From NCBI RefSeq assembly GCF_030848495.1, contig NZ_JAVDDT010000006.1, positions 1 to 64,000 of the forward strand: a DNA stretch of 64,000 nt. Reading direction: 5' to 3'. Positions 1 through 61,255 of the stretch are shown here, piece after piece. Within the stretch, counting starts at the first letter, position 1. The number at the start of each line of letters is the position of its first letter. A program made the translations under genes and the position numbers. Source of the stretch: Natronospira bacteriovora (GTDB lineage Bacteria; Pseudomonadota; Gammaproteobacteria; Natronospirales; Natronospiraceae). The notes under the pieces were generated by a model. The model searched no databases and was not told the origin of the DNA. It saw only the letters and a list, made by a program, of their open reading frames with translations.

Positions 1-322
1 TGAGTGCTGAGTGCTGAGTGCTGAGTGCTGAGTGCTGAGTGCTGAGTGCTGAGTGGGGGCGTTAGAGGGTGTTGGGATGGTTTGGGTGTGACGGCTTCGA
101 AGATGGGGTGAAAGGCCGAAGCCTTCGGCTTCCGCGCTTTGCGCGTATTAGGCCGGCCTGTGGCCGGCCGTTGGGCGCCGCAGGCGCCCGGGTTGCCGCC
201 TCACGCCTTACGCCTCACGCTCGAAGCCGCAACACCCCAAGCCACCCCGGCATCCTCTAACGCCCCTCCGATTCACACCCGGCCCCGCCGACCCGCACCC
301 TCTCAGCACTCAAAACCAAAGC
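1..322. repeat. Composite inverted heptamer element E1
   Basis: Bases 1-55 are seven and a half tandem copies of TGAGTGC. A left arm (about 56-110) follows, then a hairpin row (114-191), then a right arm with short GGCGTAA-type units read in inverse (about 199-222), and a degenerate inverted TGAGTGC pair near 301-315. The left arm is an imperfect inverted copy of the right: GGGGCGTTAGAGG near 57 pairs with CCTCTAACGCCCC near 253-267. The hairpin row contains GCCGAAG/CTTCGGC, GCGC/GCGC, GGCCGGCC twice and GGGCGCC/GGCGCCC. The right arm is nearly identical to E2 and E4. The element may start outside the window. Confidence 0.85.
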
Positions 323-1056: not shown

Positions 1057-1373
1057 GTGAGGCGTAAGGCGTAAGGCGTGAGGTGAAAGGCCGAAGCCTT
1101 TGGCTTCCGCGCTGCGCGCGATCCGCCCGGCCGGCAGGCCGGCCGTTGGGCGCCGTAGGCGCCCGGGTTGCCGCCTCACGCCTTACGCCTTACGCCTTAC
1201 GCCTTACGCCTTACGCCTCACGCTCGAAGCCGCAACACCCCAAGCCACCCCGGCATCCTCTACCGCCCCTCCAGTCCACGCCCGGCGCCAGCCGAATGCC
1301 CAGCCCCTCCGATCAACCCCGGCCCCTCCGACCCGCACCCTCTCAGCACTCAGAACTCAGCACTGAGAACTCC
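1057..1373. repeat. Composite inverted heptamer element E2
   Basis: The 510-base gap before the next gene holds this element. A left GGCGTAA/GGCGTGA array (1057-1083) is followed by the hairpin row (1089-1165), a right inverted array of five or more such units (about 1172-1233), the conserved arm beginning CTCGAAGCCGCAACACC, and a short inverted TGAGTGC/TGAGTTC array (1341-1373). No left TGAGTGC array is present, so this copy looks truncated or rearranged on the left. Bases 970-1020 hold a degenerate REP-like hairpin. Long open frames through the element are artefacts of stop-free repeat translation. Confidence 0.85.
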
Positions 1374-9250: not shown

Positions 9251-9367
9251 GAGTTCTGAGTTCTGAGTTCTGAGTTCTGAGTTCTGAGTTCTGAGTTCTG
9301 AGTTCTGAGTTCTGAGTTCTGAGTGCTGAGTGCTGAGTGCTGAGTGCTGAGTGCTGAGTGCTGAGTG
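9251..9367 (+). repeat. Heptamer array, left arm of element E3
   Basis: About 16.7 tandem units: first TGAGTTC-type units, then a block of TGAGTGC units, so the array has two homogeneous sub-blocks. It faces the inverted array at 9680-9760. Read on the plus strand it has TGA in each frame; read on the minus strand it is open, which is what extends the miaB frame upstream. Confidence 0.95.
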
Positions 9368-9679
9368 GGTGCTGGTCGGAGGGGGCGGGGTTGATCGGAG
9401 GGATGGGGCTTTCGGTTGGCACCGGGCGTGAATCGGAAGGCGACCTGGGCCGAAGCCGTGCCACCTGCTGTGGGAGCGGCATTCCTGCCGCGATTGGGGT
9501 TTGCCGGAGCCGGGAAGCCGGCGGTGCCGCTCGCCCGCTAACGGCTCCGGCAAGGCGTTGATCGAGGCTAAAGCCTCTCCCACAGGCACGGCATCGATCG
9601 GGGCCGCCTTTTCGATTCACGATTCACTCAAAATGCCGATTACGACTACGACTACGATTACGACTACGAGGGCACTGCC
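9368..9679. repeat. Core of element E3 with facing REP-like hairpins and a GAYTAC array
   Basis: The core between two inverted arrays in the 673-base miaB/ydcF gap. It starts with GGTGCTGGTCGGAGGGGGCGG, which recurs after the arrays at 12168 and 61214. REP-like TGTGGGAGCGG (9469-9495) faces CGAGGCTAAAGCCTCTCCCACA (9562-9585), and between them GCCGGAGCCG pairs with CGGCTCCGGC, so the core can fold as one long stem. Bases 9638-9669 are a six-base array of GATTAC/GACTAC. No gene is visible here. Confidence 0.8.
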
Positions 9680-9760
9680 CACTCAGCACTCAGCACTCAG
9701 CACTCAGCACTCAGCACTCAGCACTCAGCACTCAGCACTCAGAACTCAGCACTCAGAACT
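9680..9760 (-). repeat. Heptamer array, right arm of element E3
   Basis: About 11.5 units of CACTCAG/AACTCAG, the inverse of the left array. The last units are mixed GAACTCA and GCACTCA. It ends about 80 bases before the YdcF-like start. Confidence 0.95.
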
Positions 9761-12102: not shown

Positions 12103-12109
12103 TGATTGG

Positions 12110-12523
12110 TGCTGAGTGCTGAGTGCTGAGTGCTGAGTGCTGAGTGCTGAGTGCTGAGTGCTGAGTGGGTGCCGGTCGGAGGGGCTGGCGGTTCTCGGAG
12201 GGACCGGGCTTCGAGGGGCTGGTGAGGCGTAAGGCGTAAGGCGTGAGGGGAAAGGCCGAAGCCTTCGGCTTCCGCGCTTTGCGCGTATCAGGCCGGCCTG
12301 CGGCCGGCCGTTGGGCGCCACAGGCGCCCGGATTGCCGCCTCACGCCTTACCCCTTACGCCTCACGCTCGAAGCCGCAACACCCCAAGCCACCCCGACCC
12401 CCCGCTAACGCCCCTCCGATTCACACCCGGTGCCAACCGATAGCCCGATCCCTCCGATCAACCCTGCCCCCTCCGACCAGCACCCACTCAGCACTCAGCA
12501 CTCAGAACTCAGCACTCAGAACT
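12110..12523. repeat. Composite inverted heptamer element E4 (most complete copy)
   Basis: Full nested structure: TGAGTGC array (12110-12167), left arm with GTGCCGGTCGGAGGGG, inner GGCGTAA/GGCGTGA array (12223-12248), hairpin row (12254-12331), inverted inner array (12340-12368), arm with CTCGAAGCCGCAACACC, CCCCTCCGACCAGCACCC pairing with the left arm, and inverted outer array (12484-12523). Both arms pair over most of about 200 bases. It fills the marR/yggX gap. No gene is visible in it; open frames crossing it are repeat translation. Confidence 0.9.
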
Positions 12524-12583
12524 CCCCTCATAAGTTACAATCCCCCCACACCGAATCATCCGCCAAACCTCAAGGAGCGCGCC

Positions 12584-12862
12584 ATGAGCCGCAAAGTCCA
12601 CTGCATCCTTCTGGGTACCGAGGCCGAGGGGCTGGATCGGGTGCCTTATCCCGGCGATCTCGGCAAGCGGATTTTCGAGAACGTTTCCAAGGCCGCCTGG
12701 CAGCAGTGGCTGAACCATCAGACCATGCTCATCAACGAATACCGCCTCTCGCCCATCGAGCCCAAGGCCCGCAAGTTCCTGGAAGAGGAAATGGAAAAGT
12801 TCTTCTTCAGTAACGACAAGGTAAGCAAGCCGGAAGGCTACGTACCGCCCGAACAGTCGTGA
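12584..12862 (+). CDS. yggX: Fe(2+)-trafficking / oxidative damage protection protein YggX
   Basis: 92 aa, the family's normal size. Conserved blocks: [20 protein letters not shown] with the family cysteine at residue 7, [30 protein letters not shown], and the C-terminal [17 protein letters not shown]. It helps protect and repair Fe-S clusters under oxidative stress. ATG 12584 follows AAGGAGCGCGCC, a good ribosome site; homologs start here. In enterobacteria yggX follows mutY; here the MutY gene lies 2 kb away on the other strand. Confidence 0.95.
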
Positions 12863-12886
12863 AAGCGCTTGCAGGGAGGCAGGCTG

Positions 12887-14209
12887 TTGCGATCCACTGA
12901 TTCGCAAGCTCGTGCACACCCGCTCCGGAACCTGACTTGCAGTCTGGGCCTGGCACTGGCCCTCGGCCTGCCCATCCAGGCCCTGGGCAATGCCTTTACC
13001 GCGCTGGACGCCCGCTCACTGAGCCTGGGCGGTTCCGGCGTGGCAAGCACCCGGCCCTACAATGCCCCCTTCTTCAATCCGGCCCGCCTGGCAGGCAACC
13101 CGCAGGTAGAGGGCCGGCGCGATGAACTCACCTTCCTTCGGCCCTACGTCGGCGTTCGCCTGATTGATCGTGACGGCTTCCTGGATGCCCTGGATCAATA
13201 CCAGGAGAACGACAACAGCAGCCGCCTGGATACGGCTCTGGACGAACTCGAGCAGAGCCTGCGTGATCTCGACCCCAATCGCGAGGATTTCCTTGCCGTG
13301 ACCACCGCCGGCAACGCCCTGCTGGATGATTACCAGAACCTGTCCGACAAACCCCTGCGACTGGTGGGCTCGGGGGGGATGAATGTGGGCTACCCCTCGG
13401 AACGCTGGGGCTTTGGCGCCCACCAGCGCATCAACGGCGCCATCGGCATGGAGATCCGGGTCTCCGAGAGTGATATTGCCGCGGTTCGCGAGGTACTGGA
13501 TTTCATCGACTTCCTGGTGGAACTGGTGGACGCCGATGAACTGCCCGACGACGTTGATCTCCCGGTCCTGCCGGATGATTTCCAGTCCGAATTCGCCCTG
13601 CAGGGCATGCTGGTGGAAGAAACCGGGCTCAGCCTGGCCGCCCAGATTCCCGGCATGAGGCGCACGTCCGTCGGGGTCACGTTGAAACAGCTGCGGGTGG
13701 AAACCCTGGACTGGCGCACCGAAGTGGACGATGCGGAAAGCGATAACTTCGATCGCGAGCAGCAGAGCCTCACCTACACCGACTCCAATATCGACATTGG
13801 CCTCACCCATGAGCTGGACGAACACTGGACGGCCGGCCTGATGGTGCGCAATGCCATTGCCCGGGATTACCTCACGGTGCTGGGAAATGAGGTGCGCCTG
13901 CGCCCCGTCGCCCGCGTCGGCCTGGCCTGGCAGAACGAGCAGTGGACCGTGGCCTGGGACATGGACCTGAACGAAACCGAAGCGGTGGGTTTCGACCCCA
14001 GGAAGCAGTTCATCGCCATGGGTGCGGAATACCGCCCCTGGCGCTGGCTCGCCCTGCGCGGCGGCTACCGCCATGAGCGGGTACTGGAGGAAGGGGAACT
14101 CTCCCTCGGCTTCGGCCTGGCCATGCGCCATGCCCACTTCGACCTGGGCGTGAGCACCGACGGCCGTGATTCCATGGCCGCCGCCCTGCAGTTCGGGGTT
14201 CGCTTCTGA
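12887..14209 (+). CDS. TraF-like (PF13729-type) outer-membrane beta-barrel protein
   Basis: About 440 aa. An N-terminal signal peptide (LTCSLGLALALGLPIQALG) is followed by NAFTALDARSLSLGGSGVASTRPYNAPFFNPA, the hallmark start of FadL-like/TraF_2 barrels, and C-terminal amphipathic strands end in LQFGVRF with a terminal Phe, as in barrel proteins. Function unknown; some relatives are labelled conjugal-transfer TraF but nothing conjugative is nearby. TTG 12887 is preferred since GGGAGG lies 7 bases upstream; TTG 12869 is an alternative. It starts 24 bases after yggX and may be in one operon with it. Confidence 0.72.
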   Translation: MRSTDSQARAHPLRNLTCSLGLALALGLPIQALGNAFTALDARSLSLGGSGVASTRPYNAPFFNPARLAGNPQVEGRRDELTFLRPYVGVRLIDRDGFLDALDQYQENDNSSRLDTALDELEQSLRDLDPNREDFLAVTTAGNALLDDYQNLSDKPLRLVGSGGMNVGYPSERWGFGAHQRINGAIGMEIRVSESDIAAVREVLDFIDFLVELVDADELPDDVDLPVLPDDFQSEFALQGMLVEETGLSLAAQIPGMRRTSVGVTLKQLRVETLDWRTEVDDAESDNFDREQQSLTYTDSNIDIGLTHELDEHWTAGLMVRNAIARDYLTVLGNEVRLRPVARVGLAWQNEQWTVAWDMDLNETEAVGFDPRKQFIAMGAEYRPWRWLALRGGYRHERVLEEGELSLGFGLAMRHAHFDLGVSTDGRDSMAAALQFGVRF

Positions 14210-14225
14210 AAGGCGAAAACCGTTT

Positions 14226-14380
14226 AGCCGCGAAATGCACGCGAAATGGACGCTAGATTTTGGGCCGTGCTGAGGGTGCCGCCGTGCTGCTTCGGAGGGG
14301 CCGTGCCTGCGGAGGGCACGAAAGATATTGACCACGAAATGAACACTAAATGGACACAAAATAAGGCCTGGCACCGCAGG
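14226..14380. repeat. IR-type intergenic repeat, half copy (family F)
   Basis: The 596-base gap 14210-14805 is packed with repeats. This part starts AGCCGCGAAATGCACGCGAA and continues through GTGCTGCTTCGGAGGGGCCG. The same blocks, in the same order, open the element at 63087 between ftsY and ftsE. Only one full arm is present here; 14330-14360 (ACCACGAAATGAACACTAAATGG) is a degenerate second direct block. Confidence 0.75.
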
Positions 14381-14398
14381 TGCTGACTGCCCCCCCCC

Positions 14399-14424
14399 TG
14401 TGGGAGCGGATTTATCCGCGATCA
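14399..14424 (+). repeat. REP-like hairpin (TGTGGGAGCGG type)
   Basis: TGTGGGAGCGGATTTATCCGCGAT: a GTGGGAG head followed by a short stem GCGGAT/ATCCGC. This is the form of REP sequences mobilised by RAYT transposases in gammaproteobacteria. Other copies lie at 9469, 9562, 14584, 14692, 14738, 58603 and 63199 (degenerate). Confidence 0.75.
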
Positions 14425-14491
14425 CAATCCCTCGGTTGCCACGCCAACTGTTTCCTGAGGGCTTGGTGCCGGAGCCAGGCTGGGTGATTGG

Positions 14492-14518
14492 ACACGGAGA
14501 CCACGGAGAACACGGAGC
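14492..14518 (+). repeat. 9-bp tandem array (ACACGGAGA type)
   Basis: Three units of CACGGAGAN. The unit resembles the (GAGACGCGG)-type repeats that flank the GxxExxY gene at 36900 and 37368. No gene overlaps. Confidence 0.65.
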
Positions 14519-14583
14519 GGGGTGTTGTGTTGGCTTTGATAAAGGTCGCGTGTCGCTGAGGGTTGGGTAGCGTTAGTTGGTTT

Positions 14584-14608
14584 GATCGCGGCGGACGCCG
14601 CTCCCACA
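14584..14608 (-). repeat. REP-like hairpin, inverse orientation
   Basis: GATCGCGGCGGACGCCGCTCCCACA, the inverse of the copy at 14399, 160 bases away. The two face each other as a REP pair. Confidence 0.7.
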
Positions 14609-14629
14609 AGAAACACCCCCCAGAGCCGG

Positions 14630-14818
14630 CTTCGCCGGCAGGAGCAAGGAGCTAGGAGCAAGGAGCAAAAGGCACAACAGTTGCTGGTTGCTGTGGGAGA
14701 GGCTTTAGCCTCGATTAGTGCCTGCTGATGGCAGCAGTCGAGGCTAAAGCCTCTCCCACAGCAGAAAACTCCCGAGCCGGCTTTTTCCTTGCTCCTTGCT
14801 CCTTACTACTTGCTCCTA
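14630..14818. repeat. Element E9: AGGAGCA heptamer arrays around facing REP-like hairpins
   Basis: Left: GCCGGCTTCGCCGGC hairpin, then four AGGAGCA/AGGAGCT units (14640-14667). Centre: TGTGGGAGAGGCTTTAGCCTCGA (14692-14716) facing TCGAGGCTAAAGCCTCTCCCACA (14738-14760), separated by a CTGCTGATGGCAGCAG hairpin. Right: inverted units TTGCTCC/TTACTAC (14786-14817). It has the same plan as the other elements with a different heptamer. The right array overlaps the 3' end of mutY and supplies its last codons and stop. Confidence 0.85.
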
Positions 14819-18221: not shown

Positions 18222-18293
18222 GGTGAAGGCTTCCTTGGCCCGGGGGTTGGAAGCATCCATTCTAGCGTTTGGAGGCGATGGGGTGTGAGGGGG

Positions 18294-18570
18294 AGTTCTG
18301 AGTTCTGAGTTCTGAGTTCTGAGTTCTGAGTTCTGAGTTCTGAGTGGGGGAGTGGGGGTTGTGGGCGTGAGTGTAGTGGTGATCGGGGTTTTGGGAACGA
18401 GTGAGGCGTAAGGCGTGAGGGAAGGGCCGAAGCCTTTGGCTTCCGCGCTTTGCGCGTGTCAGGCCGGCCTGCGGCCGGCCGTTGGGCTCCACAGGCGCCC
18501 GGTTTTTACCTCACGCCTTACGCCTTACGCCTCACTCGTTACTCCTCACGCCTTACGCCTCACTCGCACC
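18294..18570. repeat. Composite inverted heptamer element E5
   Basis: Fills the 369-base gap between asmA and the tRNA. TGAGTTC array (18294-18345), GTGGGGGTTGTGGGCGTGAG arm, GGCGTAA/GGCGTGA units (18401-18420), hairpin row (18425-18502), then inverted CCTTACG/CCTCACT arrays (18508-18570) in two blocks separated by TCGTTACTC. There is no right TGAGTGC-type array; the element ends about 20 bases from the tRNA 3' end. Confidence 0.85.
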
Positions 18571-18704: not shown

Positions 18705-18772
18705 GAGTTCTGAGTTCTGAGTTCTGAGTTCTGAGTTCTGAGTTCTGAGTGCTGAGTGCTGAGTGCTGAGTG
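18705..18772 (+). repeat. Heptamer array upstream of S23 gene 1
   Basis: About 9.7 units, TGAGTTC first and TGAGTGC last, the same two-block order as at 9251. Faces the inverted array at 19190-19221 across the S23 gene. Confidence 0.95.
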
Positions 18773-18816
18773 GGGTAGCTTTGGAGTTTGGGGGGCTTAC
18801 GGGGGAGCGTCGGGGG

Positions 18817-19176
18817 GTGCGGCGGTTTGAGGATCTGGTTGCTTGGCAGAAGGCTCGTGCGTTGACTCGGGCGATTTATCAGCACACCAGTCGAGGGCAA
18901 TTCGAGCGTGATCTTGGGCTGTGCGGCCAGATTCAGCGCGCGGCCGTTTCTGTCATGTCGAATCTGGCGGAAGGATTTGAGCGCGGATCGAGCCGCGATT
19001 TCCATCGTTTCCTCGTTATCGCAAAAGCTTCTTGCGCGGAACTCCGTTCGCAGCTCTACGTGGCGCTGGACAACGGCTACCTGACACAGTCGGAGTTTGA
19101 GGCGCTCAGCAAGATGAGCCTGGAAGTCTCAAAAGTCATAGGCGGCCTGCGAGCAGCCGTCTCCCGTCAAAGATAA
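18817..19176 (+). CDS. S23/Avd-like four-helix-bundle protein 1
   Basis: 119 aa. Matches the '23S rRNA intervening-sequence protein / four helix bundle' family: [69 protein letters not shown], and a closing helix. The fold is that of Avd, the accessory protein of diversity-generating retroelements; these stand-alone relatives have no known function and are not inside rRNA here. GTG 18817 is chosen: GGGGGAG lies about 10 bases upstream and homologs start at this point; an upstream start would translate the heptamer array. Both sides are inverted heptamer arrays. Confidence 0.88.
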
Positions 19177-19189
19177 ACCCAGCGCCCGG

Positions 19190-19221
19190 AACTCAGCACT
19201 CAGCACTCAGAACTCAGCACT
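19190..19221 (-). repeat. Heptamer array downstream of S23 gene 1
   Basis: About 4.5 units of GAACTCA/GCACTCA, inverse to the array at 18705. It overlaps the 3' end of the next gene and gives it the residues VLSSEC and the TGA stop at 19200. Confidence 0.95.
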
Positions 19222-20453
19222 TCCCCATACAACCCCACCAACTTCGGCCCTTCCGTCTCCCACGACAGCCAGCGCCCATTGCGCCGGGCCGAGGCCGCGA
19301 AACGCGCCCTGAGCTCGGCATCGTCGCGCAGGCGAATCATGGCATCACGCACGGCGGTCGGGTCGGCGGGGTCCACCAGGAGGCCGAAGTCGGCTTCGGT
19401 GACGATCTTGCGGATTTCGGGGAAATCGCTGGCAATGACCGGCAGGCCGGCCATGCCGTATTCGAAGATCTTGTTGGAGTCGGTGGTGTAATGGTTCAGG
19501 CCGGCGTTTTCCAGCAGCTGCAGGCCCACATCCGCGGAGGCCGTCCACTCCGCCAGTTCCTGCCAGGGCACGGCGTCGAGGAAATGCACCCGCTCGCTCA
19601 CGCCCAGGGCCCGGGCACGTTCACGCAGGGTCTCGCGCAGGATGCCGGGGCCGAGGAAGGCGAAATGCGCCTCCTCCACCTCCGGGACCCGGTCGATGAT
19701 CATCTCCAGGCCACGTCGGGGCTGCAGCCCGCCCTGGTAGAGAAACAGCACCGCCTCGTCCGGAATGGCCACGGCCTCGCGCAGGCGGCGACCGGCCTTC
19801 ACTTCCCGGTACAGGGGGCGGTTCTGGATCACCACCGGCTCGGGGATGTCATGCACGCGGGCGAAGTGCTCGGCGCGCAGGCGGGTGGTGGTGATCATCT
19901 TTGCCACGCGGCGGGCGAAGTAACGCTCGAAGCGGCCCACCACCGGCCCCATGCGGCCAAAACCGGTGCGGTCGGTGGTGATCTCGTGGGCATCGTAGAT
20001 GACCGGCCGGCCGCGGGCGGAGCAATACACCCAGGGCAGGGCCTGGATGTCATGGGCGTGATAGACATCGGCGCGCAGGGAACGGATGGCGCGGGTAAAG
20101 CGCAAAAAGCCCGGCAGCACGCGCACGGCGCGCAAAAGAATGGCCACCGGGCCGGGGCGGTTCTTGTGCAGGGCCCAGGGCTCGGGCCGGCGAATGGTGA
20201 GCACGTCGAAGCCTTCCGGATGACGATGGCGCCCGATTTCTTCCGGATCCCAGCTCGCCGCCACCACCGTGACCCGGGCACCGCGGCGGGCAAGCTCCGC
20301 CGCCGAGCGCACCACGCGGGCATCGTGACGCAGGCTGCCCCAGACCGCCATCACCACATCGCGCCCCGCCAATCGCTCACCCCCGGCCGATTGCTCACCC
20401 CCGGCCGATTGCTCACCCAAGGGGCGCGCGCCCTGATTTTCCCCACTGCTCAT
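19200..20453 (-). CDS. GT4-family glycosyltransferase
   Basis: 417 aa GT-B enzyme. N-domain: MAVWGSLRHDARVVRSAAELARRGARVTVV, DVYHAHDIQALPW; C-domain: AVLFLYQGGLQPRRGLEMII, FAFLGPG, and NHYTTDSNKIFEYGMAGLPVIASDFPEI with the nucleotide-sugar-binding Glu. It is a close relative of the gene at 20537. The first 33 residues include a degenerate EQSAGG repeat encoded by 18-bp direct repeats (20375-20420), so translation may really begin near residue 34-35 (about 20351). The C-terminal VLSSEC and stop come from a heptamer array. Donor and acceptor unknown. Confidence 0.82.
   Translation of the reverse strand: MSSGENQGARPLGEQSAGGEQSAGGERLAGRDVVMAVWGSLRHDARVVRSAAELARRGARVTVVAASWDPEEIGRHRHPEGFDVLTIRRPEPWALHKNRPGPVAILLRAVRVLPGFLRFTRAIRSLRADVYHAHDIQALPWVYCSARGRPVIYDAHEITTDRTGFGRMGPVVGRFERYFARRVAKMITTTRLRAEHFARVHDIPEPVVIQNRPLYREVKAGRRLREAVAIPDEAVLFLYQGGLQPRRGLEMIIDRVPEVEEAHFAFLGPGILRETLRERARALGVSERVHFLDAVPWQELAEWTASADVGLQLLENAGLNHYTTDSNKIFEYGMAGLPVIASDFPEIRKIVTEADFGLLVDPADPTAVRDAMIRLRDDAELRARFAASARRNGRWLSWETEGPKLVGLYGEVLSSEC
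20375..20420. repeat. 18-bp direct repeat in glycosyltransferase 5' end
   Basis: Two and a half copies of GCTCACCCCCGGCCGATT at 20375, 20393 and 20411, in frame with the gene (six codons per unit), coding EQSAGG. Copy number changes would keep the reading frame. Confidence 0.85.
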
Positions 20454-23507: not shown

Positions 23508-24809
23508 TCAGGATCGGGCCATGCCGTTGAGCCCCAGCAGATTCACCACATCAATCATGCGCGCCAGATCCAGCCGCCGACCGTTGAGGTCTTCCTGCAG
23601 TGCCGTATGCGCCACCAGGGCCACACTAAGATCGGCCTGCTCCAGGGCGTCATCAAGGCTAACCAGTCTCACATTGCTGCAGTCGGCAAGCTCCGGGGGC
23701 AGGGCATTCACATGAGGCTCCACCGCCAGCACCGTCAACCGCGAGTGCTCGGCCAGCAACTGGACCACCTGTACTGCGGGGCTGGAACGAAGGTCTTCCA
23801 CATTGGGCTTGAAGGCCAGGCCGAGACAGGCAACGGTCACCTCACCGTCGGGCAAGGCCTGCATCACCTGTTGAGCCACGAAGACAGGCTTGTATTCATT
23901 CACCTCGCGCGCTGTTGTCATCAGGCGGGCGAGCTCCGGGGCCGAAGCAATCAGAAACCAGGGGTCCACGGCAATACAATGCCCCCCGACGCCAACCCCC
24001 GGCTGCAGGATATCCACGCGCGGATGACGGTTGGCGAGCTCAATCAACTCCCAGGGATCAATGCCGTGCTGCTCGCAGACCAGGGAAAGCTCATTGGCGA
24101 AGGCAATGTTCACATCCCGATAGGCATTCTCGGCCAGCTTGCACATCTCCGCCGTGCGCACATTCGTGCGAACAAGTTCGCCGCGCACGAAGCGCCGATA
24201 CAGATCGCAGGCGGCATCGGCGCAGCGGCTGGTCATGCCCCCGATGATGCGGTCATTGCCCACCAGCTCCTGCAAGACCCGCCCCGGCAGCACCCGTTCC
24301 GGGCAGTGCGCCACCCGGATATCGGCTTCCTGCCCGGCCTTGTGCGGAAAACTGAGATCCGGACGTTCCTCGCCCAGCCAGGCACACAACTGCTCCGTGG
24401 TGCCCACCGGACAGGTGGATTCCAGGATCACCGTATTGCCGGCCTCCAGCAAAGGCGCCAGGCTCCGTGCCGCCGCTTCCACATGGCTGAGATCCGGCTG
24501 ACGCGCCTCACCCAGCGGCGTAGGCACGGCAATGATGAACACATCGGCCGGCTGCGGCTCGACAAAACACCGCAACCGCCCGGCCTGAACCACACTCCGC
24601 ACCACAATATCCAGATCCGGCTCGGCGAACTGGATCTCCCCGCGATTGATGGTATCCACCACCGAATCGACAATATCCACCCCAACGACCTCAAGCCCCC
24701 GCGAAGCCATCACCGCCGCCGTCGGCAGACCGATATAGCCCAAGCCCATTACGCAAACCCGGGTGGGTTTGGAGGACTGAGGACTGAGGACTGAGGACTT
24801 AGAGGACAT
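23508..24809 (-). CDS. wecC: UDP-N-acetyl-D-mannosamine dehydrogenase WecC
   Basis: 433 aa UDP-sugar dehydrogenase producing UDP-ManNAcA from UDP-ManNAc with 2 NAD+. Motifs: GLGYIGLPTAAVMASRGLEV (NAD fold), STCPVGTTEQL, AHCPERVLPGR, and catalytic-cysteine region GVGVGGHCIAVDPWFL; C-terminal UDPGDH domain ends with a DVVNLLGLNG loop. The N-terminal residues SSKSSVLSPQSSK before the NAD fold are translated from a GGACTGA array in its open direction, so the natural 5' end seems replaced or extended by repeat sequence. Start ATG 24809 overlaps the preceding S23 gene by 11 bases. Confidence 0.92.
   Translation of the reverse strand: MSSKSSVLSPQSSKPTRVCVMGLGYIGLPTAAVMASRGLEVVGVDIVDSVVDTINRGEIQFAEPDLDIVVRSVVQAGRLRCFVEPQPADVFIIAVPTPLGEARQPDLSHVEAAARSLAPLLEAGNTVILESTCPVGTTEQLCAWLGEERPDLSFPHKAGQEADIRVAHCPERVLPGRVLQELVGNDRIIGGMTSRCADAACDLYRRFVRGELVRTNVRTAEMCKLAENAYRDVNIAFANELSLVCEQHGIDPWELIELANRHPRVDILQPGVGVGGHCIAVDPWFLIASAPELARLMTTAREVNEYKPVFVAQQVMQALPDGEVTVACLGLAFKPNVEDLRSSPAVQVVQLLAEHSRLTVLAVEPHVNALPPELADCSNVRLVSLDDALEQADLSVALVAHTALQEDLNGRRLDLARMIDVVNLLGLNGMARS
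24771..24805. repeat. GGACTGA heptamer array at the wecC start
   Basis: About four and a half GGACTGA units on the plus strand. On the minus strand it is open and encodes the first residues of WecC. It is the left partner of the arrays at 25181-25270 around S23 gene 2, though the unit differs. Confidence 0.85.
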
Positions 24810-25155
24810 CCTGCTTCTGCCTTATTAATCCGCCGAGAAGGGAAAAAACCGTATCAAGCTGGTCAGTCAGCTCGGCATCAGGCCGGCTAAAACCAAGCTC
24901 GTTGGCAATGATAACCTGAGTCTCCAATTCCGCGAGCGATCCCCTGGCCATAACCAGGAAACGAACCATGTCAGCCGATGTTGCCCGCGCTGCTCCCTCA
25001 CTGATGTTACTGGGAACCGAAACGGCGGCCCGGCGCATCTGGCTCATGAGCCCGTATCGCTCGTCCGCTGGAAATTGCCCTGTGAAACGATAGACCAGTT
25101 TTACCAGGGTCACCGCTTCCTGCCATGCACGTAGTTTGTGGTGGGCGCGTGTCAT
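24799..25155 (-). CDS. S23/Avd-like four-helix-bundle protein 2
   Basis: 118 aa, same family as 18817: HHKLRAWQEAVTLVKLVYRF, GLMSQMRRAAVSVPSNISEGAARAT, RFLVMARGSLAELETQVIIANELGF, and a last helix DTVFSLLGGLIRQ. The conserved core 'RRAAVSVPSNISEG' is canonical. ATG 25155. It separates wecB from wecC, which are normally adjacent, and overlaps the wecC start by 11 bases. Heptamer arrays lie on both sides. Function unknown; not within an rRNA gene. Confidence 0.9.
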   Translation of the reverse strand: MTRAHHKLRAWQEAVTLVKLVYRFTGQFPADERYGLMSQMRRAAVSVPSNISEGAARATSADMVRFLVMARGSLAELETQVIIANELGFSRPDAELTDQLDTVFSLLGGLIRQKQDVL

Positions 25156-25180
25156 TTGATTCTCCCCCCATTTTTTGGAC

Positions 25181-25270
25181 GAGTGAGGCGTTAGGCGTTA
25201 GGGAAAACAGTTCGTTGCCCCACTGCCTTCCCGCCTTTCACCTCACGCCTTACCCCTTACGCCTCACTCG
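25181..25270. repeat. Inverted GGCGTTA/GGCGTAA arrays with short core
   Basis: GAGTGAGGCGTTAGGCGTTAGGG (25181-25203) faces CCTCACGCCTTACCCCTTACGCCTCACTC (25240-25269) across 36 bases. It is a small, cargo-free version of the composite elements. The right array overlaps the wecB 3' end. Confidence 0.9.
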
Positions 25271-54060: not shown

Positions 54061-55878
54061 TCACTCGGACTCACCTGACAGGGCTCTAAGCAGCTCCTGG
54101 GCCGCATCGCCATCTTTTTCCCGACTTGCACTGTCCGCACCCAACTGACGCAGGCTCTGTGCGGCAACGGACAATCGATGGTTAAGCTTACCGAGTAACT
54201 CGTCCTGCTGTTCTTTCCGTCTCACAAGGGCTGCGTAGCGTTCCTGGAGGTCCTTGAGGTCCCGGTCACGCTGAGTCTGCAGTCTAATTGCGACTGACAA
54301 ATCACTACGGGAATCTCTCAACGCTTCCTCGATACGCGCCTTCTCTTCTTCCAACTTAAGCCTGGCTTCACGCTCCGTGGCTAGCTGCTCTCGCTCCTTG
54401 GCTGCTTCCTCTCTGGCCTGCGTGACCTGGCTCTCCAGCTCGGCTCGGGTTTCCTGCTCCTTCTTGAGTGCCGCAGCCTGCTCCTCCGCCTTCTGTTTGG
54501 ACTGTTGCTGCTGCTCCGCGAGCTTCTCCTTGAGCGAATCACGTTCCTTGGCTAGCTGCTCTCGCTCCTTGGCTGCTTCCTCTCTGGCCTGCTTGAGCTG
54601 GCTCTCCAGCTCAGTTCGGGTTTCCTGCTCCTTCTTGAGTGCCGCAGCCTGCTCCTCCGCCTTCTGTTTGGACTCTTGCTGCTGCTCCGCGAGCTTCTCC
54701 TTGAGCAAATCACGTTCCTTGGCTAGCTGCTCTCGCTCCTTGGCTGCTTCCTCTCTGGCCTGCTTGAGCTGGCTCTCCAGCTCAGTTCGGGTTTCCTGCT
54801 CCTTCTTGAGTGCCGCAGCCTGCTCCTCCGCCTTCTGTTCGGACTCTTGCTGCTGCTCCGCGAGCTTCTCCTTGAGCGAATCACGTTCCTTGGCTAGCTG
54901 CTCTCGCTCCTTGGCTGCTTCCTCTCTGGCCTGCTTGAGCTGGCTCTCCAGCTCGGCTCGGGTTTCCTGCTCCTTTTTGAGCGCCGCAGCCTGCTCCCCC
55001 GCCTTCTGTTCGGACTGTTGCTGCTGCTCCGCGAGCTTCTCCTTGAGCGAATCACGCTCCGTGGCTAGCTGCTCTCGCTCCTTGGCCGCTTCCTCTCTGG
55101 CCTGATTGAGCTGATTTTCCAGCTTGGCTCGGGCTTCCCGCTCTTTGCTTAGTGCCTCGGCCTGGTGCTCTGTGGTGTTCTCCGCTTTTTGGACCTTCTC
55201 TTGGAGCTTGATCAGTTCCGCATTGAGACGTTCTATTTCCAGCCTTTCGATATTCTGCTTTAGGTGCCAGGTGGGACGATCAGGGTCGGCATCATCCACT
55301 TCGCCCTCGAGCTGATAGCCCTGTTCTTCCAGGAAGGCGAGCACTTCCTGGGCGGGGGCTACGCCCTCGTAGAGGGATTCCTGGCCGCAGCGGAGCACGA
55401 TATTAGCAATGCGCGAGAGGGTGTTTTCTTGCTGCAGAGAGCGGAGGATGGCCTCTTCTTCGCCCGGGGTATCGACGATCAGGCAGATTGACTGGGCATT
55501 GGCGAGCTGGGCTTCATCCAGCAATTCGACCGGTGTGACTGCCTCGACGGCCACTTCGCGGACCAGCCGCAGCCCGGGGAAGAGGTCTTTCAGGCCAGTG
55601 GCCGGGCGAAGACTGCTGACTTCCGGCAGGTTGTAGGTATGCAGAACACGCTCGCCGGGTTCGTCGGAGACGGCATAGGGCAATACAGTGATGTTTGCGT
55701 TGTCGCTGGTTCGGCGTTCTAGTGTTTTGGCCAGGGCCGGATTTGCTTCCACCAGTACAACCGAGGTGCTGGCTGGCAGGGCCTGATAGGCCGCAAGCTC
55801 CTGACAGCGGCCAGCGCCGAGGTGGACGATGGCATCGGCATTGTTGAGAGCAATCTGTAGTTGCGGGGTCACGCTCAT
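54061..55878 (-). CDS. FkbM-like methyltransferase domain with long repetitive coiled coil
   Basis: 605 aa. Residues 1 to about 200 look like an FkbM-type methyltransferase: AIVHLGAGRCQELAAYQALP, VVLVEANPALAKTL, ITVLPYAVSDEPGERVLHTYN, though motif I is HLGAGRCQE and may be weak. From about 205 to 590 the protein is an unbroken, highly charged coiled coil. Residues about 256-499 are a 57-residue unit repeated about 4.3 times (QAREEAAKEREQL / SLKEKLAEQQQ / EEQAAALKKEQETR). The layout recalls WbdD, in which a catalytic terminator sits on a coiled-coil ruler that sets O-antigen length. This role is inferred. Confidence 0.72.
   Translation of the reverse strand: MSVTPQLQIALNNADAIVHLGAGRCQELAAYQALPASTSVVLVEANPALAKTLERRTSDNANITVLPYAVSDEPGERVLHTYNLPEVSSLRPATGLKDLFPGLRLVREVAVEAVTPVELLDEAQLANAQSICLIVDTPGEEEAILRSLQQENTLSRIANIVLRCGQESLYEGVAPAQEVLAFLEEQGYQLEGEVDDADPDRPTWHLKQNIERLEIERLNAELIKLQEKVQKAENTTEHQAEALSKEREARAKLENQLNQAREEAAKEREQLATERDSLKEKLAEQQQQSEQKAGEQAAALKKEQETRAELESQLKQAREEAAKEREQLAKERDSLKEKLAEQQQESEQKAEEQAAALKKEQETRTELESQLKQAREEAAKEREQLAKERDLLKEKLAEQQQESKQKAEEQAAALKKEQETRTELESQLKQAREEAAKEREQLAKERDSLKEKLAEQQQQSKQKAEEQAAALKKEQETRAELESQVTQAREEAAKEREQLATEREARLKLEEEKARIEEALRDSRSDLSVAIRLQTQRDRDLKDLQERYAALVRRKEQQDELLGKLNHRLSVAAQSLRQLGADSASREKDGDAAQELLRALSGESE
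54381..55110 (-). repeat. 171-bp in-frame tandem repeat in coiled-coil gene
   Basis: The sequence CTAGCTGCTCTCGCTCCTTG recurs at 54381, 54552, 54723, 54894 and 55065, an exact 171-base period, giving about 4.3 copies of 57 codons. Copies differ by few bases (for example Ser/Leu at one codon, KQK/EQK at another), so they are recent duplicates. Copy changes keep the reading frame and would lengthen or shorten the coil by 57 residues. Confidence 0.95.
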
Positions 55879-60985: not shown

Positions 60986-61147
60986 TCGTGACTCCCTCCG
61001 ACGTCCTGTCAGTGCTGTTTTTTGAGGTATTGGCCCTTCCCGACCAATTCCCTCTTATGTTTAATCACGCGCCGATCCCCCTTCCCCTTCGGCGCGTTGC
61101 GAGCGCAATTGAGTATAGGGGATGCGCGGTTGGGTGTGAAGGTGGAA

Positions 61148-61255
61148 GTGCTGGGTGCTGAGTGCTGAGTGCTGAGTGCTGAGTGCTGAGTGCTGAGTGC
61201 TGAGTGCTGAGTGGGTGCTGGTCGGAGGGGGCGGCGGTTCTCGAAGGGGCGGGGC
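61148..61255 (+). repeat. Heptamer array and left arm, element E8
   Basis: The 301-base gap between galU and the antitoxin holds this. About nine TGAGTGC units (first GGGTGCT) at 61148-61213, then the arm GGGTGCTGGTCGGAGGGGGCGG shared with E3 and E4. No inverse arm follows directly; the next arrays (61924-62035) lie beyond the NadS/toxin genes. Confidence 0.9.

Follow-up and report, generated by a model that had tools for sequence, protein, structure and literature searches.

The window analysed here comprises bases 1–64,000 of contig 6 of a draft genome (3.0 Mb in 15 contigs, 97% complete). At 12109–12524, direct reading and TRF resolve a TGAGTKC array, an arm, a GGCGTRA array and a row of GC hairpins, followed by the inverse of each (Table 1). 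All parts of the nested plan that a sequence-only reading had described at 12110–12523 are thus present, and the RNA of this segment is predicted to fold into one long hairpin (-282 kcal/mol; z = -18 against shuffles).

The same reading had proposed one primary design, recurring at 1, 1057, 12110 and 18294 and again at 25181–25270. The inner part, consisting of GGCGTRA arrays and hairpins, is indeed repeated at about 30 places in the genome, and the copies at 1 and 1057 have the right arm in common (90% and 82% identity), but the copy at 18294 is without the inverse TGAGTKC array, and 25181–25270 turns out to be the right-hand end of a different element, which carries a gene at 24799–25155. 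Instead of a single design we found composites, in which outer arrays enclose arms, inner arrays and REPIN hairpins. Two of the intervals listed in that reading bracket a PF05635 gene, which it had missed.

Table 1. Array-bounded elements and their parts in the 64,000-nt window (strand "." where unoriented)
Feature	Coordinates	Strand	Basis or remark
Reported element: outer left array, TGAGTGC x 8	12109–12167	+	TRF, 100% matches
Reported element: left arm	12168–12224	+	direct reading; reverse complement resembles the siblings' right arms
Reported element: inner left array, GGCGTRA	12225–12256	+	TRF
Reported element: GC-hairpin row	12257–12336	.	fold
Reported element: inner right array, inverse GGCGTRA	12337–12367	-	TRF
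Reported element: right arm	12368–12484	-	common to other copies
Reported element: outer right array, inverse TGAGTKC	12485–12524	-	TRF
Sibling composite	1–312	+	left array intact, right TGAGTKC array cut to one unit; may join the next composite
Sibling composite	1057–1372	+	inner arrays, hairpins, arm, right array; without its own left TGAGTKC array
Inward TGAGTKC pair	9251–9760	.	around arm, REP-like hairpins and 6-bp array; absent from the G002 counterpart
Inward AAGGAGC heptamer pair	14640–14817	.	encloses a REPIN hairpin
Composite	18293–18563	+	left TGAGTTC array, inner arrays, hairpin row; without inverse outer array
IVP element	18705–19221	+	inward TGAGTKC arrays; 6 kb from the reported element
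IVP gene	18763–19176	+	PF05635 (E = 1e-33); TIGR02436 four helix bundle protein
IVP element	24772–25268	-	flanked by a GAGGACT array and, opposite, a GGCGTTA/TYACGCC structure; between wecC and wecB
IVP gene	24799–25155	-	PF05635
Solitary TGAGTGC array, then arm	61147–61213	+

Directly 3' of the first composite lies a BrnT-like toxin gene (PF04365, under the curated cut-off) at 364–642, followed by a small ORF. Elsewhere in the window, a 171-bp tandem repeat (4.7 copies, 54368–55164) is contained within ORF 54061–55878.

The yggX–traF block (window 12109–14817) is inverted relative to the same-genus genomes G001 and G002. The reported element lies at one edge of this block and another heptamer element at the opposite edge, and the repeats may therefore double as rearrangement points.

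TGAGTKC arrays and IVP genes in the genome

The 21-base pattern (TGAGTKC)x3 has 234 matches in the genome (119 + 115), and its reversed control has none. In the 843 kb, taken as stretches, over which array orientation was analysed, 15/17 pairs of neighbouring TGAGTKC arrays less than 1.5 kb apart are convergent, with a spacing of mostly 320–530 bp. The contents of such inward pairs vary: some hold a gene, others 6-bp arrays, REPIN hairpins, or rows of GC hairpins together with inner heptamers.

Four genes for the 23S rRNA intervening-sequence protein (PF05635; IVP) are present in the genome, and all four lie between inverted short-unit arrays, each with its own distinct unit. Besides the two in the window, one IVP gene is placed between inverted TGTTCAC/TGGGAAC heptamers and the other between 6-bp units. 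The ORF at 18763–19176 starts within its array, with the domain spanning 18829–19143. The element around this gene has inward TGAGTKC ends in common with the reported element, and nothing longer. PADLOC matched neither of the IVP proteins of the window, so that an association with defence is not supported.

Array DNA also enters neighbouring reading frames. The wecC frame begins inside the GAGGACT array (24742–24809; N-terminus MSSKSSVLSPQSSKPTR...), whereas wecC of G002 starts with MAIER..., and the IVP element has in this way supplied a new wecC gene start. The cas4 gene of Anabaena sp. 90 (locus L300, about 2393–2470) likewise starts inside an element array, and the glycosyltransferase ORF 19200–20453 ends in the TGAGTKC array (19200–19221; C-terminus ...EVLSSEC), where the array is read as protein.

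IVP elements and their empty sites across bacteria

In related genomes, most IVP genes have 7-bp arrays next to one end or both. These arrays are frequently inverted, and their unit is nearly always different. A scan of genome contigs yielded 80 IVP loci from about 30 phyla, 75 of which had sufficient flank. Counting a bracketing inverted repeat at a local score of 32 or more, we found one around the IVP gene in 80% of these 75 loci, compared with 0/645 same-locus control pairs and 1.2% of swapped loci; direct repeats reach 15%, and ~20% of the IVP loci are without a bracketing repeat. An inverted repeat surrounds 35/65 IVP genes but only 1/304 other ORFs of the same loci. The best period is 7 in 33/156 IVP flanks vs 18/953 control segments and 8 in 10 flanks vs 5 control segments, and periods 4–6 and 9–12 are hardly seen. 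Arrays were present at 90/152 IVP loci, with period 7 in 77 and period 8 in 11, so that the earlier proposal of a conserved unit length and a free unit sequence applies to most loci but has to accommodate the 6-bp arrays of the present genome and the 8-bp arrays of IVP loci elsewhere.

At 65 vs 8 IVP loci, the sense strand of the 5' array is rich in G, unit matches between IVP elements retain their polarity (86 to 18), and similar units go with similar IVP proteins (49.8% vs 41.2% by permutation, p = 0.0005). Shared descent suffices to explain the co-variation of unit and protein, and IVP may in addition recognise the unit. Overall, the association between IVP genes and arrays is very well supported. 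A complete element measures about 420–550 bp and consists of an inward array of a 7-bp (less often 8-bp) unit, the IVP gene and the inverted array; the unit differs between elements yet travels with its IVP protein. A literature search, outside which most subscription journals fell, returned no paper in which heptamer arrays located elsewhere than in 23S rRNA are tied to IVP/S23 genes.

Where a genome holds several IVP genes, the copies are divergent and their units differ where arrays are present; intragenomic bursts of IVP elements were looked for and none was seen. The divergence of copies within genomes suggests that the elements arrive singly and do not multiply in place. The unit CTGRATT occurs at about 20 loci, and only in the genome whose IVP gene carries it (the complete G139). 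In G001, TGAGTKC arrays are present, yet the detected IVP gene has an 8-bp unit, and in G153 the array unit is found only at the IVP gene itself; the tie of arrays to IVP is correlative. A phage origin of IVP was considered and set aside, as a search of 50,697 phage records did not find the gene, although 29 loci in viral contigs match.

Comparison of filled and empty sites shows the elements as inserts. On the Nostoc plasmids pC052_D and pNsp_a, an IVP element with the unit CAGRAGT occupies one gap of an operon, and in the same operon on pNsp_c an IVP element with a unit near GGGAAAA occupies the neighbouring gap, such that each plasmid provides the empty site of the other. Between cas10 and cmr3, Picosynechococcus PCC 7003 carries an IVP element that is absent from PCC 7002; in Nostoc edaphicum, an IVP element separates nrdB from nrdA and is missing from Calothrix NIES-4105. 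Measured against their empty sites, the four cyanobacterial inserts are 419, 503, 429 and 494 bp long. In three comparisons the insert edges coincide with the arrays or lie a few bases from them; in pNsp_c, some 40 bp of the insert extends beyond the right array. Gene and arrays are absent together from the empty sites, and the target changes by -2, +3, -13 and -13 bases in the four pairs, which argues against a constant target duplication.

The search for empty sites in relatives that the sequence-only reading had proposed gave a positive result at two places in the window, both in comparison with G002: the wecC–wecB gap has 69 bp between matched parts in G002 vs 559 bp with the IVP element here (24772–25268), and the site of the 9251–9760 element measures 250 bp vs 751 bp here. 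The same-genus relatives compared are distant (67–86% identity), and the G002 empty sites may therefore reflect loss rather than gain. In all, five comparisons show a relative without the insert, and there is good support for the insertion of IVP elements. The broader idea of an element family with boundaries and empty sites holds well for the IVP-carrying elements; the gene-less copies may likewise be mobile.

Earlier work counted the IVP genes of cas operons as a CRISPR-associated function (PMC3936711). In two such operons, we found the IVP gene within an array-bounded segment that is missing from a relative; for the second operon, that relative has a different insert at the site. For cas6–IVP–cas4 of Anabaena sp. 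90, a 98.8%-identical relative holds another palindromic insert and hence offers no clean empty site. In Dolichospermum UHCC 0315A (locus L338, about 1417–1662), a palindromic insert (GTAGGTTGGGTT...AACCCAACCTAC) fills the cas6–cas4 gap in place of the IVP element, and in Pseudanabaena sp. ABRG5-3 (locus L339, about 1175–1212) a related cas6–cas4 gap without IVP retains a short array of ATTACGA heptamers that may be a remnant.

A model and its alternatives

The empty sites, together with the bracketing of IVP genes by arrays across phyla, point to one family of bacterial insertion elements in which the IVP gene and the mirrored heptamer arrays are the gene and the ends, with gene-less composites sharing these ends; we assign this reading a probability of roughly 60%. 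As a single strand of DNA or RNA, the two arms would base-pair to give a long stem whose loop holds the gene, as in the 23S rRNA intervening sequences (IVSs), and the RNA of IVP elements is predicted to form a stable stem. IVP, a relative of a five-fold ring, would bind the stem or the repeats and could bring in host enzymes that join the element into intergenic gaps with no regular target duplication. Pairing of the arms would keep them alike, and slippage in one-unit steps would alter copy number. In place of an IVP gene, the reported element and its siblings have hairpins, REPINs and inner arrays. Because they share inward TGAGTKC ends with a resident IVP element, these gene-less composites are most likely non-autonomous, built on or moved with IVP-element ends. 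Against such a link, no gene-less copy was caught moving, and it is only the arrays that are shared.

The main rival, which we consider unlikely, holds that strong hairpins (the IVP stem, a REPIN or the GC row) stall replication and cause slips of 7–8 nt, such that arrays would lengthen symmetrically on either side of them as a by-product and would not be the ends of a mobile element, with IVP a passenger. It would account for the fact that arrays enclose REPINs and hairpin rows besides IVP genes, with one REPIN type enclosed by two different heptamer units, and it is favoured by the strand on which arrays lie in G139, where, on contig 1 (L318–L337), CTGRATT loci of at least 3 units differ in strand between the two replication halves, with 9 minus-strand loci in the first and 10 plus-strand loci in the second, a count that covers the located array loci and leaves aside about six pattern matches. 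A corresponding replication rule is not significant in the present genome, however, and the joint absence of gene and arrays from empty sites, as well as the co-variation of unit and protein, speak against slippage, which by itself also leaves unexplained why one unit is common to many unlinked places of a genome. We suggest that the G139 strand pattern would be compatible with a single-stranded stage linked to replication.

The single Y1 transposase (RAYT) gene of the genome is flanked by REPINs of type GTGGGAGAGGCTTTAGCCTC, and that REPIN also lies within two heptamer-bounded elements, raising the improbable scenario that the gene-less composites are REPINs moved by this enzyme, with heptamer arrays as incidental flanks. 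Yet the REP of the RAYT-flanking type, GAGGCTTTAGCCTC, which recurs in 14640–14817, is missing from 12109–12524, and the core motif of the hairpin row in that element did not turn up around the RAYT gene; the arrays around IVP genes come without REPs; and Y1 genes occur nearly everywhere among the genomes examined, including G002, which has no IVP gene and in which no TGAGTKC arrays were seen, so that the presence of Y1 does not discriminate. Another scenario, which we regard as very improbable, is suggested by the structural similarity between PF05635 and Avd of diversity-generating retroelements (PMC10053308): IVP would act like Avd alongside a reverse transcriptase by which the element RNA, with its predicted stable stem, is turned back into DNA. 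A search for RVT_1 came up empty in the present genome (97% complete) and in the complete genomes G139, G278 and G142, all of which carry IVP. Finally, the distance of the same-genus relatives, where loss could mimic gain, lends a little room to the view that the arrays are static low-complexity spacers found at the same places in all relatives. We find this scarcely credible in light of the empty sites, the convergence of neighbouring arrays and the IVP link across phyla, and for the IVP-carrying form the plasmid empty sites already contradict it.

Our preferred reading, an IVP insertion-element family, can be put in a stronger form, which we offer tentatively and rate as somewhat less than an even bet. 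IVP elements would then form a separate class of mobile DNA, made of a non-enzymatic ring protein and two mirrored arrays in which the length of the unit (7–8 nt) is fixed and its sequence is not; they would spread through bacteria with neither a known transposase nor a known reverse transcriptase, would have given rise to the 23S IVSs, and would drive their gene-less relatives through unit-specific recognition of arrays.

Relation to known inserts and repeats

The closest counterparts are the 23S IVSs of Coxiella burnetii, Leptospira and others, which resemble the elements in size, in a PF05635 ORF placed in the loop of an inverted-repeat stem, and in variable tandem heptamers. In Coxiella, the insert in 23S rRNA is 428 nt long and is removed by RNase III; its 28-bp terminal stem closes a loop that contains an S23p ORF, and tandem GACAGAT heptamers, variable in number among strains, lie just upstream of the ORF (PMC4990558). 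In our window, PF05635 ORFs with a terminal inverted-repeat stem around them are found at 18763–19176 and 24799–25155, but not in 12109–12524. Unlike the IVSs, the elements lie between protein genes and not in a 23S rRNA gene (Rfam detects a tRNA-Gly and no other known RNA family in the window), their arrays can be long, several units occur per genome, and they have gene-less relatives. On the simplest reading, the 23S IVSs are probably a special case of the IVP elements, namely those that inserted into rRNA. For the IVP family, the structures 2gsc and 2rld have been solved, and a five-fold ring built of four-helix bundles has been described for a Xanthomonas member (PMC4990558).

Other systems are similar in part. 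REPINs with their RAYT are likewise intergenic inverted hairpin elements, one type of which occurs here within two heptamer-bounded elements, and a Y1 transposase is resident in the genome, but IVP elements are without REP and the hairpin row of the reported element differs from the REP beside the RAYT gene. The composites resemble MITEs in being short, gene-less, inverted at their ends and present in many copies, and differ from them in that no constant target duplication was found in the filled and empty IVP sites, the ends are arrays of variable unit, and no transposase with matching ends is known. The TAACTGA heptamers of marine Beggiatoaceae are also intergenic 7-bp units, found in many places and in variable number; these are direct repeats with a single inverted case, and no link to IVP was reported (PMC4679880). 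The present elements offer a candidate source for at least some such scattered intergenic heptamer repeats.

How 23S IVSs arose and spread, and what their ORF does, have been open questions since about 1990–1993, and older proposals held that IVSs are remnants of transposition, or mobile elements whose ORF aids mobility (reported in PMC4990558). The occurrence of the unit of gene and stem as an intergenic insertion in many phyla, with empty sites, makes the origin of IVSs and the role of the ORF testable, and with them these older proposals of mobility. A mechanistic puzzle is raised as well, namely how the length of a unit can be conserved when its sequence is not. The reported repeats are the visible part of something wider than was first proposed, within which the place of the gene-less composites, and the mechanism of the elements at large, are inferred. 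This kind of array-ended insert, usually with one small gene, is widespread and barely recognised and has so far come to notice chiefly in bacterial rRNA, and its family may explain how the rRNA inserts arose and why the IVP gene turns up in CRISPR operons, where IVP genes can simply be read as array-bounded insertions.
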